Shown one piece after another: positions 7,392 through 60,769 of a DNA stretch of 64,000 bases (position 1 is its first letter; the number at the start of each line of letters is the position of its first letter). The stretch spans positions 67,924-131,923 of the forward strand of contig NZ_KB899540.1 in NCBI RefSeq assembly GCF_000378305.1, read 5' to 3'. This stretch comes from Thioalkalivibrio sp. ALJ12 (GTDB lineage Bacteria > Pseudomonadota > Gammaproteobacteria > Ectothiorhodospirales > Ectothiorhodospiraceae). The notes beneath the pieces were generated by a model, which saw only the letters and a program-made list of their open reading frames with translations, ran no database searches and was not told the DNA's origin. Position numbers and translations under genes: made by a program.

Positions 7392-7784
7392 TCAGGATTC
7401 GGCCTCGACGTGCGCCGCGTAGGCGTCGGCGTCCATCAGGGCGTCGAGCTGGCTCGCGTCGGAGGGCTTCATCTTGAACAGCCAGCCCTCGTCGAACGGC
7501 GACTCGTTGACCTTCTCGGGGCTGTCGGCCAGCTCTTCGTTGGCCTCGGTCACCTCGCCAGACAGCGGGGCGTACACGTCCGAGGCGGCTTTGACCGACT
7601 CGACCGTCGCGCAGGCGGAACCGGCCTCCACCGAGGCGCCCGCCTCCGGGGCCTCCACGAACACCAGATCGCCCAGCAGTTCCTGCGCGTGATCGGTAAT
7701 GCCGATGGTCACGCTGCCGTCGGCCTCCTGGCGCACCCACTCGTGGCTCTTGGTGTACTTCAGATCCTTCGGTGCTTCGCTCAT
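7392..7784 (-). CDS. gcvH: Glycine cleavage system H protein
   Basis: The lipoyl carrier of the glycine cleavage complex, 130 residues from the ATG at 7784, with a good Shine-Dalgarno (AAGGAAG) just upstream. The lipoyl lysine is K65 in [16 protein letters not shown]. It follows gcvT by 74 bp and shares its riboswitch. It differs clearly from the second lipoyl protein of the window (37354-37806), which has the different motif ESGKWAG. Confidence 0.97.
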
Positions 7785-7858
7785 GACGTCTTCCTTTTTC
7801 GTTTGGATCCCGCCTGCGCAGTGTAGTCTGTGGCAAGCGGCATGAGGCAATAAAATCG

Positions 7859-9033: not shown

Positions 9034-9074
9034 TAAAAAAAGGGCGGCCAGCAGGGTCTACCTGCCAGCCGCCC
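9034..9074 (-). terminator. Riboswitch expression platform (intrinsic terminator)
   Basis: On the minus strand, directly after the second aptamer, a long GC stem (about 9042-9074) is followed by a run of seven T residues (9041-9035). Placed between a glycine aptamer and gcvT, it is the expected switchable terminator. With an aptamer of this type, glycine binding should favour read-through. Confidence 0.85.
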
Positions 9075-9270
9075 CTCTGTCCTGAAACCTGAGAGTTTGC
9101 GCCGTGCCAGCGATTGCTCGCTGCAGGGCCGCCCCCTTCGGTGGACCGTTGCCGGCCGCTCTCCAGAGTGTGTCTTCTGCACCGTTCCGGTCCGGTAGCC
9201 TGAGCGATTCCGGGCGGATGTTGCGCCTTCGGCGTCTGCCAATCGACTTGCGATCGCAGATCTCTTCCAG
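9072..9270 (-). promoter_or_regulatory. Tandem glycine riboswitch
   Basis: Read leftward there are two glycine aptamers in series. Aptamer 1 (about 9270-9155) shows GGAAGAG at its 5' end, GCCGAAGGCGCAA, ATCGCTCAGGC and a closing ACTCTGGAGAG. Aptamer 2 (about 9160-9072) shows GGAGAG, CACCGAAGGGGGC, CAAACTCTCAGGTTTCAGGA and CAGAGGGG. These are the conserved blocks of the gcvT-type RNA. The switch controls the whole gcvT-gcvH-gcvPA-tpx-gcvPB operon by sensing glycine, using the terminator that follows. Confidence 0.94.
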
Positions 9271-9311
9271 AACGGTGTGCGGGCATTGTCGGGCACCCGC
9301 AGACGAAACTA

Positions 9312-36265: not shown

Positions 36266-36610
36266 TCAAGTCTGCGTGTCACGCCACGCCGAGTAGCCAC
36301 CACGCAGGACCCGGGCATCCATTCCCATCGCGCGCAGACTGTCCGCCACCAGCTGGGACCGGCCACGGCCCCCGCAAAACACCACGACGGGCTGCTGGGG
36401 GTCCTGCATGTGGGATTCGATGCTGGCCTCCAGCTTGGGCCGGGGGATATTCACCGCGCCTTCAATACTGCCTTCGGCCGCCTCCTCCGGCTGGCGCACA
36501 TCCACCAGCAGAAAGGACCGCCCAGTTTGGCGCCAGTCGACCAGTTCCGCGGGGTCCAGATGCGGCAGCTTTTCTTCCAGCTCCGCGATGCGTTTGTCGA
36601 AAAGACTCAC
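36266..36610 (-). CDS. Rhodanese-domain protein
   Basis: A 114-residue rhodanese from the GTG at 36610. The catalytic cysteine is C79 in the loop FCGGRGRSQ, and the fold marks VDVRQPEEAAEGSIEGAVNI are clear. The N-terminal 25 residues form a short helix. It lies 62 bp after the thioredoxin/NnrS-like fusion gene, same strand, so it is probably the last gene of that operon and a sulfur-transfer partner of its products (inference). Confidence 0.9.
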   Translation of the reverse strand: MSLFDKRIAELEEKLPHLDPAELVDWRQTGRSFLLVDVRQPEEAAEGSIEGAVNIPRPKLEASIESHMQDPQQPVVVFCGGRGRSQLVADSLRAMGMDARVLRGGYSAWRDTQT

Positions 36611-36672: not shown

Positions 36673-37341
36673 TCACAGGGACGCGCGCAGCAGGAGCGGC
36701 GCGATGCGCAGCGTAAACAGCGCAAGCCCGACAAACGCGGCCACCGCACCGACGGCGGTCAGCATCGGCACGCCCAGCAGCCAGCCGAAGCCCATGCCCA
36801 GCACCGAGACATGCACGAGCACCTGCGGCGTCCAGGCCCACAGCCAGCCACCCGCGATCGGGTGCCCAGTAAAGCGCGGCAGCATGTGCTCGCCGAGGCC
36901 CATGATCAGGAGCAGAAGGAACCCGAGCGTAAAGCCATGCAGCGCGGCCGGGCGCGCGGCGCCATCCAGGAAGAAGCCGCCCAGCGGCAAGGCGGCACCC
37001 GCGATCAGCAGCCAGATCATGGCGCCCAGTACCGAGGCACGGCTGGAGGCCGAAAGCCCCAGCCCGACATGACGTGCAGTCTTCTGCGTGCGCTCCGGCG
37101 CCTCGGCGACCAGCGCGGTCGCGGCCGTGCGGTCCAGCAGCCCGATGTGCTTGAGTTCGCCGTCCACGACCACGGCCGGGATGGAACGTATGCGCAACCG
37201 GGTCGCCAGTTGACGCCCCTCCGGCTGCCCCATGTCGACGACTGCGAAATCGATCTGTTTCTTCTGGGCCACCTCGCGCCAGATGCGCTCGGCATCGTGA
37301 CAGGAGGCACACCATTCGGACACCAGCAGTTCCACCTTCAT
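36673..37341 (-). CDS. Thioredoxin-like domain fused to an NnrS-like membrane domain
   Basis: A 222-residue fusion. Residues 1-80 are a thioredoxin/glutaredoxin-type fold with a CxxC active site (C11, C14 in EWCASCHD) and the cis-proline region IRSIPAVVVDG. Residues 100-222 form four membrane helices. The second reads LHGFTLGFLLLLIMGLGEHM, followed by LPRFTGHPI, a pattern like NnrS and the cbb3-oxidase-like small proteins, with possible haem-ligand histidines. It lies 12 bp after the lipoyl-protein gene. I know of no characterised protein with this build. Confidence 0.8.
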   Translation of the reverse strand: MKVELLVSEWCASCHDAERIWREVAQKKQIDFAVVDMGQPEGRQLATRLRIRSIPAVVVDGELKHIGLLDRTAATALVAEAPERTQKTARHVGLGLSASSRASVLGAMIWLLIAGAALPLGGFFLDGAARPAALHGFTLGFLLLLIMGLGEHMLPRFTGHPIAGGWLWAWTPQVLVHVSVLGMGFGWLLGVPMLTAVGAVAAFVGLALFTLRIAPLLLRASL

Positions 37342-37353
37342 GAGTCCGTCCCC

Positions 37354-37806
37354 TCAGTCCGCGCAGCGCATGCAGTGGATGTCGTAGCGGTCGATCCACT
37401 GCTTGAGCCCGTCGACGGCTTCGGGCCCTGTATGCAGCCGCTCCAGCGCCTTTTGCGGGTCGTCCGGGCGCATCACCACCACCCAGGCATCGGTATAGGG
37501 GGCCACATTCACCAGCCCGGGGTCGGCCTCCACGGCCGGGTTGATGCGCTCAATGGTGCCGTCGAAGGGCGTGGGGATGCCCCCCGCCCACTTGCCGGAC
37601 TCCAGCCGCGCGACCGGCTTGCCCGCGGCCCGATGCGAACCGGGCTTGCGAAAGCGGAAGTACTGTACGCGGCCCGCCATGGTCTGGGCGGGATCGGTGA
37701 TCCCCAGGGTGAAGGTCCCGTCGTCCTCCGGGCGGACCCAGACATAGTCGAGGTCGTAGAACAGGTCGTCCGGCAACTCGCAGCCGTTGTATTCGGTATG
37801 GCTCAT
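37354..37806 (-). CDS. GcvH-like lipoyl carrier, LbpA type
   Basis: A 150-residue lipoyl-domain protein. The presumed lipoyl lysine is K72 in RLESGKWAGGIPTP. The opening NGCELPDDLFYDLDYVWVRP and the ESGKW motif resemble the LbpA lipoate-binding proteins of the sHdr sulfur-oxidation pathway rather than true GcvH, which is encoded at 7392-7784. A CMRC pair sits at the C-terminus. The stop of the upstream membrane gene overlaps the start (TGATG). No hdr, lipoate ligase or other sHdr genes are in the window, so the partner is unknown. Confidence 0.85.
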   Translation of the reverse strand: MSHTEYNGCELPDDLFYDLDYVWVRPEDDGTFTLGITDPAQTMAGRVQYFRFRKPGSHRAAGKPVARLESGKWAGGIPTPFDGTIERINPAVEADPGLVNVAPYTDAWVVVMRPDDPQKALERLHTGPEAVDGLKQWIDRYDIHCMRCAD

Positions 37807-38204
37807 CACGCCCCCTTCGGGCCGTAGTGGCGCACGGTGAGTGCGATATTCAGCGCGAACAGGATCATCGCCCCCCAGGCCATCGCCCCGCCGACCGCAA
37901 CAGTCGGGTTATGGAACATCATCCAGCCGGCGATCATCACCCAGAGACCGAGATTGGCCAGCACGAACTGCGCATGCCCCAGCCGTTCCGAGAACAGCGA
38001 ACGCCCGGAGAAGCGCGGTAGTACGTGGAGCCCTACGCCGTAGATCATCATGGTGACAAAGCCGAGCAGCATCAGGTGACCATGGATGCGTGGCACATTG
38101 CCGGGGATCAGCCCCGGATGGGCCAGCCAGACGATGCCGATGAGTCCACCCAGCAGCGCATAGGCCAGCGCGGCCAGGATGAACATCCGGTTGCGTGGAT
38201 GCAT
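37806..38204 (-). CDS. Small NnrS/cbb3-subunit-I-like membrane protein
   Basis: A 132-residue, four-helix membrane protein. Helix 2 reads RIHGHLMLLGFVTMMIYGVG and is followed by LHVLPRFSGRSL. It is thus a close structural match to the membrane half of the fusion encoded two genes downstream. Histidines in this position are haem ligands in larger relatives. It is the first gene of the leftward operon, just behind an FNR box and an NsrR-like site. NnrS-type proteins belong to nitric-oxide responses in other proteobacteria. Confidence 0.8.
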   Translation of the reverse strand: MHPRNRMFILAALAYALLGGLIGIVWLAHPGLIPGNVPRIHGHLMLLGFVTMMIYGVGLHVLPRFSGRSLFSERLGHAQFVLANLGLWVMIAGWMMFHNPTVAVGGAMAWGAMILFALNIALTVRHYGPKGA

Positions 38205-38245
38205 GTCGCGTTTGCTCCCTTTTTTGTTTGTTCTGCAGCGAGGCT

Positions 38246-38251
38246 AGACTA
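38246..38251 (-). promoter_or_regulatory. Candidate -10 box of the leftward operon
   Basis: TAGTCT on the minus strand (4 of 6 consensus). Its centre is 33 bp from the centre of the FNR box, very near the 32 bp expected for a class II FNR-activated promoter. The spacing carries more weight than the weak box. Confidence 0.4.
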
Positions 38252-38255
38252 CGAT

Positions 38256-38278
38256 AAGATACATCGTAAATGCATTGA
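38256..38278. promoter_or_regulatory. NsrR-like operator
   Basis: The 23-bp segment reads AAGATACAT-CG-T-AAATGCAT-TGA. Set against the enterobacterial NsrR consensus (two 11-bp halves, AAGATGYATTT and AAATRCATCTT), about 16 of 22 positions agree, including a perfect AAATGCAT. It overlaps the FNR box by four bases and lies between it and the candidate -10, where a bound repressor would block the promoter. No nsrR gene is in the window. Confidence 0.5.
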
Positions 38279-38288
38279 TCGAGATCAA
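38275..38288. promoter_or_regulatory. FNR/ANR box
   Basis: TTGATCGAGATCAA is an exact match to the FNR consensus TTGAT-N4-ATCAA and lies in the divergent spacer between the NnrS-like operon and the hemerythrin operon. It may serve both directions. O2-limited activation of both units is the natural reading. Confidence 0.85.
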
Positions 38289-38371
38289 CACGGACGCTTG
38301 CGCATTCAGTGACAGTACGCCCCACATGTGCGCTGAGCACACGCCGATTGCCCCGCCATCCGAGCCTATTG

Positions 38372-38929
38372 ATGAAACTGCACCTCCAAGAACCCGCGCC
38401 CGGCTTCCACCGCCCGATCGAGCTCCTGCGAGCCTGTCATCGGCGGATCACGAACTGCCTCGACACAATGGAGCGGCTGTCGGGACACATCGAGCAGCAC
38501 GGGGCCGACGCGGAGGCCCAATCCGCGGCTCGCCGTGTGCTGGCCTATTTCGAGCAGGCCGCCCCGCAACATCACGCCGACGAGGACCAGGATCTGTTCC
38601 CGATCCTGCAGGCGTACCGCGACCACCCCGAGGCCCATCCACAACTGGGTGAGTGGATGGATCGCCTGAGCGCGGAGCACCCCCAGCTAGAGGCTGGCTG
38701 GGACGCCCTGGAGCCTGCGCTGCAAAACATTGCGGCCGGGCACGCAGATCCGCTGGAAGGCGCGACTGACTGGATCCAGCGCTACCGGGCCCACCTCGAG
38801 CTGGAGGAACAAGCCGTACTGCCGCTGGCTGAACACCTGCTCAACGCCGAGGAACGCGCCCGTATCGGACGCTCCATGGCGCACCGGCGCGGCATCCCGG
38901 ATGCGTACACGGAACCCGCCGATGAGTGA
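38372..38929 (+). CDS. Hemerythrin HHE-domain protein
   Basis: A 185-residue protein with a hemerythrin-like four-helix bundle. Likely iron ligands are in the RACHRRI, QHHADEDQDLFP, SAEHPQ and YRAHLELEEQAVLP stretches. The diiron site binds O2 or NO, and the family includes NO-stress and iron-sulfur repair proteins. The ATG at 38372 is best by similarity, although it has no strong ribosome site. The stop overlaps the next gene by eight bases. It is divergent from the NnrS-like operon across the FNR/NsrR-like region. Confidence 0.88.
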   Translation: MKLHLQEPAPGFHRPIELLRACHRRITNCLDTMERLSGHIEQHGADAEAQSAARRVLAYFEQAAPQHHADEDQDLFPILQAYRDHPEAHPQLGEWMDRLSAEHPQLEAGWDALEPALQNIAAGHADPLEGATDWIQRYRAHLELEEQAVLPLAEHLLNAEERARIGRSMAHRRGIPDAYTEPADE

Positions 38930-39062
38930 CTTCCTGCTGGACCTGCGGGGGCTGGCCGACCACGCGCACACCCGCGCCTACTACACGCTGCGCGAACTGC
39001 AACCGGGTCAGGTCTTCAACGTCTGGCTGGATCAGGAGCCACAGTTGTTAAGGAAACACTGA
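38922..39062 (+). pseudogene. DUF2249-hemerythrin gene, 5' fragment cut by a mobile element
   Basis: 46 codons that encode the first half of a DUF2249 domain (LLDLRGLADHAHTRAYYTLR, then LQPGQVFNVWLDQEPQLL). The frame runs into the terminal repeat of the inserted element, adding RKH and a stop. Removing the element and one TTAA copy joins it in frame to the segment at 39321-39908. The overlap with the hemerythrin gene upstream shows they were one translational unit. Confidence 0.9.
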
Positions 39063-39321
39063 TCAATGTACACACTCGCGTTGGTACCCCAGGTTTTCCG
39101 AGACAAGGCGCGTCGGGCAGCGGGTAGTGGTTCTACCCGCAAGCGGCGCAACGCAGGATCGGGGAACCTGGGGTGCCAACCCCGAAGGGGCTCGGCCGCT
39201 TTTGCGCGCGCACGGCGTTGCGGCTCCCTTGTGCAGAATGACTGCACGGCAGTCACCGCGCCTTGTTCGCACGCAAAAGCGACTCGAGCGCGAGCGTGTA
39301 CATTGATCAGTGTTTCCTTAA
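39048..39321. other. TTAA target-site duplication bounds
   Basis: TTAA occurs at 39048-39051 and again at 39318-39321, directly outside the two terminal repeats. The joined sequence CAG-TTG-TTA-ATG-GAT keeps the reading frame (Q-L-L-M-D), which supports a true 4-bp duplication rather than part of the repeat. Confidence 0.8.
39052..39317. mobile_element. MITE-like element (266 bp, no transposase)
   Basis: Two terminal inverted repeats of about 29 bp begin GGAAACACTGATCAATGTAC and differ at one position (about 28 of 29 identical). The 203-bp interior has smaller hairpins (for example GTGGTTCTACCCGC and GGGAACCTGGGGTGCCAACCCC) and no credible gene. The size, the TIRs and the TTAA duplication mark a non-autonomous transposon. 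A solo end lies at 60741-60769. The transposase source is not in the window. Confidence 0.88.
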
Positions 39322-39908
39322 TGGATGCGGTCAGCCTGCAGTTGCGCCACGCCATCCACTGGCAGGTGCAGGAGAACGGCCCGCCCCTGTGGAAGCTGCG
39401 CGTCCAGCGGCGCGAGGACGTCGCGCCCGTGGACCTTGTCGATCTGCTGCAGCGCGACCACCTGCGCATCGACCGGCTGTTCGCCAGCGCCCTGCACAAG
39501 GTCAATGCCGGCGATCTCGAGGGTGCAGCACCCGACTTCCAGGCCTACGTGGGAGGCCTGCGCCGGCACGTTCATGTGGAGAACGAACTGATCGTCCCGA
39601 CACTGGAAATTTCGCGCGGGGCCGGCAGCCAGGACCCGGTCACGATCATGCTGCGCGAACATGACGAGATCCTGGAACAAACCGCGCTGCTGGAACACGA
39701 GTTCCAGGAAGGCGTCGAGGAGGCCTGGATGGTAGCCCCCTTCTTCGCCCTGATCTCCGGGGCCCTCGCCAAGCACGAAAGTCGCGAGGAGCAAAACGTC
39801 TTCCCGAACTGGGGACGCCGCCTGCGCCACGAACCCGACCTGGCGGCCGAACTCCTGGAGAAGGCCCGTCAGCACCTGGGGGATGACGCCATGACGCCCA
39901 ATCGATAG
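39321..39908 (+). pseudogene. DUF2249-hemerythrin gene, 3' fragment
   Basis: 195 codons. The first about 30 complete the DUF2249 domain (MDAVSLQLRHAIHWQVQENG, KLRVQRRED). The rest is a full hemerythrin domain (RDHLRIDRLF, HVHVENELIVPTLE, LREHDEILEQ, AKHESREEQNVFPNW). Because the A of the right TTAA is the A of an ATG, the fragment could still be translated and yield a free hemerythrin. Whether it is expressed is unknown. Confidence 0.85.
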
Positions 39909-60723: not shown

Positions 60724-60740
60724 GGGCGGACGGGCATTAG

Positions 60741-60769
60741 GGAAACACTGATCAATGTACACGCTCGCG
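60741..60769. repeat. Solo terminal repeat of the MITE family
   Basis: 29 bp identical to one end of the 39052-39317 element (GGAAACACTGATCAATGTAC then ACGCTCGCG), preceded by TTAG. No second end lies nearby, so it is a relic or a recruited end. It holds the stop codon of the cytochrome b561 gene (60754-60752) and a possible start of the sulfatase-like gene. Confidence 0.85.

Follow-up and report, generated by a model that had tools for sequence, protein, structure and literature searches.

The locus studied here raises the question of whether one divergent promoter region answers both to oxygen, by way of FNR, and to nitric oxide (NO), by way of NsrR, and of which genes such a control would reach. 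The region is situated in the window, i.e., the whole stretch of 64,000 nucleotides that was analysed; the genome containing it is designated G000, and the other genomes compared are numbered in the same manner.

Genes on both sides of the region

The first gene of the leftward operon (37806-38204, minus strand) encodes a 132-aa membrane protein of four helices (4-TM protein) which resembles one unit of CcoN/NorB, and the motif H41-x-H43 together with H60 was invariant in all 13 sequences compared. Among PDB sequences, similarity to CcoN was weak (E 0.005 to 0.057) and located round HxH. The protein remained under the cut-offs of PF00115 (25.1 vs. 34.8 bits, over 56 residues round HxH) and of PF05940, the NnrS family (14.3 bits, E 0.026, vs. 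28), and its orthologue from T. halophilus exceeded the PF00115 cut-off only with adjacent stretches counted in (28.7, then 41.4). The structural model displayed four helices (pLDDT 80); TM-scores up to 0.75 were obtained in Foldseek with chains of oxidases and NO reductases, the lowest E-values corresponded to MAPEG proteins, and no match had an E-value < 0.001, the search not being decisive.

Next to it a GcvH-like protein is encoded (37354-37809, minus strand), with an invariant lysine in the motif ESGKW and a C-terminal CxxC; this lysine and C146/C149 were kept in 10 out of 10 sequences. Its Pfam domain was clear (103 bits), and its scores against the GcvH models NF002270 (95.3 vs. 117) and TIGR00527 (78.6 vs. 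115.85) were under the cut-offs. Domain scan and sequence comparison indicated that the product of 36673-37341 (minus strand) combines a thioredoxin-like domain, with CxxC, and a further four-helix membrane unit; a structure search with the model of this protein retrieved mostly thioredoxin-fold chains, and nothing convincing for the membrane half among the matches listed. A single-domain rhodanese (36266-36610, minus strand) may close the operon, to judge from the conserved gene order. Elsewhere in the window, at 9067-9279 (minus strand), a tandem glycine riboswitch was detected (60.7 and 47.9 bits), near frames that by eye are glycine-cleavage-like, e.g., a GcvH-like one at 7392-7850.

The divergent gene (38372-38929, plus strand) presented only a general hemerythrin domain, its score against the YtfE/RIC model TIGR03652 being far under the cut-off (27.4 vs. 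204.7 bits). It is followed by a gene with DUF2249 and hemerythrin domains (38922-39908, plus strand), uninterrupted in relatives and interrupted here at 39048-39321 by a 274-bp element with 33-nt inverted ends (TTAAGG...CCTTAA); a further end-like copy of this element, with one mismatch, was located at 60737-60761.

The earlier claim that the gene content on both sides fits control by NO held for its general NO-like character and failed for the textbook families, the cut-offs for YtfE/RIC, NnrS and COX1 having been missed. The genes under the candidate switch are probably NO-linked. A more specific proposal, which we regard as rather doubtful, is that the operon constitutes a previously undescribed NO-handling module, either a thiol-driven minimal NO reductase or an NO/heme protector, whose control has been rewired from lineage to lineage. 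The membrane part of such a module would be two separate units of four helices each, related to the core of oxidases and NO reductases, one of them bearing histidines of the heme-ligand type (HxH). They would receive electrons from the lipoyl-type GcvH-like carrier, with its C-terminal CxxC, and from the thioredoxin domain.

FNR box, candidate promoters and NsrR-like operator

The sequence TTGATCGAGATCAA occupies positions 38275-38288 (no strand assigned; centre at 38281.5), and direct reading bore out the exact TTGAT-N4-ATCAA that had been reported there. This exact pattern occurred at five places in the 2.78-Mb genome and its reversed control at none; when one mismatch was allowed, two places were observed in the 64-kb window vs. 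0.39 expected from shuffles. The occurrence of the FNR box is beyond chance. Further exact boxes of G000 were located before a CcoN-type oxidase gene (L089, 13933; PF00115, 375 bits), which is a usual target of FNR, between a molybdopterin-oxidoreductase-like operon and the gene that follows (L089, 4849), before a soxB-like gene (L090, 4743), and between PEBP-like and metallo-beta-lactamase-fold-like genes (L091, 4785), the last three assignments being made by eye.

Towards the operon, the candidate -10 element TAGTCT (38246-38251, minus strand) would lie 33 bp from the centre of the FNR box. Hexamers TAGTCT, TATGCT or TACGCT were found at this distance in 13 of the 15 promoters aligned, and at 32 bp in the remaining two (TACTCT in G043 and TGCTCT in G044). 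A competing -10-like hexamer, TATCGT (38256-38251), is placed at 28 bp, and offsets 23 and 28 also carried conserved hexamers (15/15 and 13/15 promoters, respectively). Since these hexamers are conserved too and the region is A+T-rich, the leftward -10 is ambiguous: the original prediction was right as to the distance of 33 bp, and its choice of TAGTCT has to compete with TATCGT.

Towards the hemerythrin genes, the candidate -10 is GACAGT (38311-38316, plus strand), at 32 bp from the same centre. Hexamers at this place matched on average three of the six consensus letters, and the assignment rests on conservation: at offset 32 the second letter was A and the sixth T in 15/15 promoters, no other offset between 20 and 49 reaching more than three of the 15. 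Variants in relatives were GAAAGT, AACAGT, AAAAGT, and CACACT. The distance on which class II spacing had been proposed was recovered on the left, the mirror-image class II candidate on the right having been overlooked. FNR sites are placed at -41.5 ± 4 in 19 of the 23 promoters of E. coli that FNR activates and whose starts are known (PMC3688515), and for this reason both sides are compatible with class II. A sigma-70 scan of 38000-38500 revealed no promoter-like site, which argues neither for nor against the candidates, since an activator-dependent promoter would allow it.

The NsrR-like operator, the 23-mer AAGATACATCGTAAATGCATTGA (38256-38278, minus strand; core ATGCAT-N5-ATGTAT at 38275-38259), overlaps the FNR box by 4 bp. 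It agreed at 16 of 22 positions with a 23-mer NsrR consensus, and the palindrome as first described was recovered by direct reading. The minus strand, AATGCATTTACGATGTATC, fitted 12 of the 14 positions of the published consensus gATGyAT-N5-ATrCATc, as given by Rodionov 2005 (PMC1274295). By itself the site was at the level of chance: two places with up to two mismatches were found in the window vs. 2.39 expected, and up to three mismatches to the core were reached at 25 out of 63984 window positions. The exact 21-mer of the window site, with up to three mismatches allowed, retrieved only itself and was uninformative. Genome-wide, ATGYAT-N5-ATRCAT with at most one mismatch occurred at four places and its reversed control at none.

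Matches with up to two mismatches being expected by chance in 64 kb, and conserved A+T-rich hexamers overlapping the site, the promoter might be controlled by FNR only. The palindrome would then be core-promoter sequence (A+T-rich spacer and -10) with a chance likeness to NsrR sites, and NsrR would act elsewhere, as at hmp; we consider this unlikely on the evidence of the orthologous promoters, which were compared because the NsrR-like site alone did not rise above chance.

The family search covered 47 genomes, 26 of which had some match to the first operon gene and 16 a clear orthologue. Fifteen of these orthologues showed 63-100% identity over nearly the full length and one was truncated; the remaining 10 of the 26 genomes presented weak matches only (best 3.7e-6), to longer frames. 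The truncated gene, in G044 (L030), matches over residues 1-45, after which the frame diverges, the promoter region being kept. An FNR-type box was present upstream of the operon in 15 of the 16 operon genomes and was exact in 14; that of G032, TTGATCCGTGTCAA, has one mismatch and lies 247 bp before the start codon vs. 68-100 bp elsewhere. T. halophilus (G012) possesses the operon, with no FNR-type box in its upstream region.

In all 15 box-bearing promoters the NsrR core stood at the same offset from the box, with 0-3 mismatches at its 12 specified positions: none in G016, G019, G039, G043, and G044 (n = 5), one in G000, G024, and G020 (n = 3), two in G018 and G021 (n = 2), and three in G017, G023, G026, and G040, all of clade B, as well as in G032 (n = 5). 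Slides of 1-3 bases gave five or more mismatches in 89 out of 90 cases, the exception being three, in G032. Within the close clade plus G043 and G044 (seven sequences), 11 of the 12 positions fitted the consensus throughout and the twelfth departed from it in G000 and G024 only, other variation being confined to Y, R, and spacer positions. When eight genomes were scanned with the 17-mer, this promoter was the best genomic match in G019, G039, and G043, was tied at three mismatches in G000 and G016, ranked second after a single better match in G024, and was not among the matches listed for G018 and G026. Many sites of the second clade (clade B) were degenerate, and the 15 aligned promoters represent few independent lineages.

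The NsrR-like site is significant because it has been kept at one fixed offset in orthologous promoters, and the FNR/NsrR-like layout is conserved in relatives. The perfect cores at that offset in five genomes, and the near confinement of core changes to Y/R positions or spacer, speak against control by FNR only, whereas the five promoters with three mismatches count in its favor.

Regulator genes and further NsrR-type sites

The layout had originally been read as activation without O2 and relief of repression by NO, a reading that depends on the presence of NsrR. A gene for this regulator was found at G000:C2:232061-232489, with NsrR as its best NCBIfam match (151.5 bits, under the equivalog cut-off of 182). 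Its product has three cysteines, CX4CX5C, as compared with the E. coli spacing. The recognition-helix segment PRNHLVKIVHQL was the same in three clade A proteins, those of G039 and G000 not being among the three, and in the three clade B proteins compared; this constancy, set beside the three mismatches in four clade B promoters and in G032, counts against the NsrR-like site. FNR is encoded by L010 (C1:1312022-1312708; 247 bits vs. a cut-off of 228) and displayed an N-terminal CX2CX5C and the helix GLTQETISR, corresponding to the Fe-S cysteines and the ExxSR recognition helix of E. coli FNR. The FNR model NF008365 was over its cut-off in 44 of the 47 genomes, including 16/16 operon genomes. 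The conserved layout and the presence of both regulator genes support the original reading, at the level of sequence.

Distribution of nsrR (E ≤ 1e-25; 20 out of 47 genomes) followed that of the operon, with 16/16 operon genomes vs. 4/31 others (Fisher P of 3e-9, and 2e-7 within the genus, values not corrected for kinship). The flavohemoglobin gene hmp was over its cut-off in 12 of the 47 genomes, and part of the nsrR pattern may stem from hmp because all 12 have both operon and nsrR; operon and nsrR without hmp over the cut-off were found in G017, G032 (66% complete), G043, and G044. That nsrR is kept in every operon genome argues against a promoter controlled by FNR only, as does the arrangement in T. 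halophilus, where the operon adjoins hmp-nsrR, the COX1-like/GcvH-like operon being divergent from hmp, with nsrR beyond.

Three Rrf2 proteins exceeded the cut-off in G000, and the palindrome could be bound by another of them (L005 or L006, IscR-like by eye), so that control would depend on Fe-S or redox state and not on NO. This is very unlikely, since the site fits the published NsrR consensus and the occurrence of the operon tracks nsrR within the family, in a comparison that covered nsrR only.

Flavohemoglobin is a classical NsrR target, and in G000 (C1:676885-678057; 563 bits vs. a cut-off of 432) one of the four places retrieved at up to one mismatch lay 66-82 bp before the hmp start, with one mismatch. 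Two further places look accidental and were rejected as NsrR sites: C1:1467665, without mismatches, is placed where a TetR-like frame has its 5' end, whereas C1:997369 falls inside a coding frame. The genome scan that had been suggested picked out this promoter and hmp. NnrS and NO reductase as the missing context were discarded for G000, which gave no match to PF05940 (NnrS family) and no NorB-like match other than a CcoN-type protein and the 4-TM protein, its only PF00115 matches.

Sites with up to two mismatches were also found before hmp at -82 to -84 in G000, G016, G018, G023, G024, and G026 and at -64 in G012. In five of the 12 hmp genomes (G019, G020, G021, G039, and G040) such a site was missing where it was expected, the only one of G020 being at -31. 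Upstream regions of nsrR from six genomes showed no clear site, with one three-mismatch site in G000 and none in the other five, and the idea of a palindrome there as a sign of nsrR autoregulation was given up. A one-mismatch site was located 52-68 bp before the nnrS start in G043; the nnrS stretches of G019 and G039 had none at up to one mismatch.

Two perfect NsrR-type cores were observed in other contexts. That of G043 (L088, 4718-4734) precedes by about 97 bp a gene for a membrane protein of the HPP family (PF04982, 158 bits), which is adjoined by a sensor-like gene. The other, in G024 (L132, 1501-1517), stands just before a gene with a CoxB-like counterpart in G039 (68.6 bits vs. a cut-off of 147.7), which is followed there by the gene of a 483-aa protein, a remote member of the COX1 family (58 bits to CtaD vs. 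a cut-off of 671). These oxidase-like genes of G024 and G039 possibly encode an NO-linked oxidase or an alternative NO reductase.

Control in other lineages, predicted switch and known systems

The trio of 4-TM, GcvH-like, and thioredoxin-4TM proteins was found in 10 out of 10 loci (L106-L115), including Gammaproteobacteria and a Burkholderiales MAG; in four Gemmatimonadetes loci (L116-L119) the 4-TM protein was the only member of the trio matched. Among named organisms, Thioalkalivibrio strains had the operon orthologues closest to that of the window. In the MAG loci L107, L109, L110, L111, and L113 the protein encoded divergently was of the Crp/Fnr type and had the helix Q-P-E-T-x-S-R, being recognized by domain scans for L107 and L113 and by likeness for the others. 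In these loci, with the exception of L113, TTGAC/T-N4-GTCAA lay 64-65 bp before the operon start codon, apparently taking the position of the FNR box for another regulator. An exchange of regulators is suggested, since in these other Proteobacteria the operon adjoins the divergent Crp/Fnr-type gene. Other divergent neighbors were superoxide-dismutase-like in L108 (by eye), without such a box, thioredoxin-like in L114 (by eye), with a two-mismatch box at -78, and a DUF2249-hemerythrin gene in L106, with a one-mismatch box at -79. If the operon were an NO-handling module as proposed above, its control would be exerted by FNR and NsrR in Thioalkalivibrio, would go with hmp-nsrR linkage in T. halophilus, and in some further Proteobacteria would involve a Crp/Fnr gene that is divergent from the operon and in most cases has a box of its own.

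The box-bearing MAG loci, four of the five with a divergent Crp/Fnr-type gene, also raise the idea that the box of the window is used by another Crp/Fnr protein (Dnr-like) and not by FNR. This is scarcely probable for G000, where the matching ETISR helix was present in L010 (FNR) only, among the four Crp/Fnr proteins that passed the HTH cut-off, and where none of these four is encoded in the 64-kb window.

We consider it likely that the divergent region is under dual FNR/NsrR control, with one FNR dimer for two promoters, binding and regulation being predicted. Without O2, FNR with its Fe-S cluster would bind the near-perfect palindrome at 38275-38288, and one dimer would activate transcription either leftward into the operon or rightward into the hemerythrin genes; it could serve either side because the box is symmetric and has a -10-like element at class II distance in each direction. 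NsrR with its Fe-S cluster would bind 38256-38278, thereby lying over the leftward promoter's spacer and reaching the FNR box at its inner edge. In this position it would cover approximately -16 to -38 as counted from the leftward start predicted here, occluding RNA polymerase on the left, and would compete with FNR and hence for both directions, until NO destroys its cluster and the block is lifted. The two directions may alternate, and not fire together, because polymerases would crowd at predicted starts 83 bp apart. It is from position and protein families that we infer binding, activation, repression, competition, and start sites, and likewise an NO-related function for the genes.

Dual control by FNR and NsrR is of a known kind, and the genes controlled here are less familiar. 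El-Robh and Busby reportedly obtained divergent promoters activated from one CRP site in test constructs; the likeness lies in one dimer acting from a shared target on two divergent promoters, and the present case differs in that the activator would be FNR, a repressor site overlaps, and the arrangement is natural and conserved. In Neisseria the NO-metabolism genes aniA (nirK) and norB are divergent, FNR activates aniA, and NsrR repression is relieved by NO (PMC10187123 and PMC1274295). That region resembles ours in being divergent and having FNR and NsrR sites. According to the same sources, it has an FNR site for aniA and none near the norB promoter, two NsrR motifs, and the participation of NarP, whereas here one FNR box would be class II to both sides and a single NsrR-like site overlaps it. 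For enterobacterial hcp-hcr, PMC1274295 describes an upstream FNR-like region and a gATGyAT-N5-ATrCATc NsrR site downstream, that is, two conserved regions and one operon, in contrast with the overlapping sites, divergent region, and different genes found here. E. coli nrf has FNR at -41.5 (PMC5434802), and the title of a work cited there attributes its down-regulation by NsrR to an upstream site; nrf is similar in combining FNR and NsrR, and differs, by that title, in the upstream place of its NsrR site.

In a literature search made mostly on listings, no description of a dual class II FNR box with an overlapping NsrR-like site was found, and a search for overlapping FNR and NsrR binding sites returned none. 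Titles and abstract beginnings concerning Thioalkalivibrio and NsrR included none about this promoter, and listings on GcvH-like proteins with NO or NnrS gave nothing on the 4-TM/GcvH-like/thioredoxin-4TM trio. Sulfur oxidisers are known to have lipoyl-type carriers in the Hdr-like pathway (PMC6067878).

The O2/NO switch is very probably real, and of a familiar kind, in these soda-lake sulfur bacteria. It provides a testable control circuit for a conserved and poorly known trio of genes extending from Thioalkalivibrio to a Burkholderiales MAG, and it would tie a lipoyl-type carrier to regulation of the nitric-oxide type. The symmetric class II pair with its shared, overlapping repressor site would moreover be a compact natural case of one activator dimer serving two promoters.
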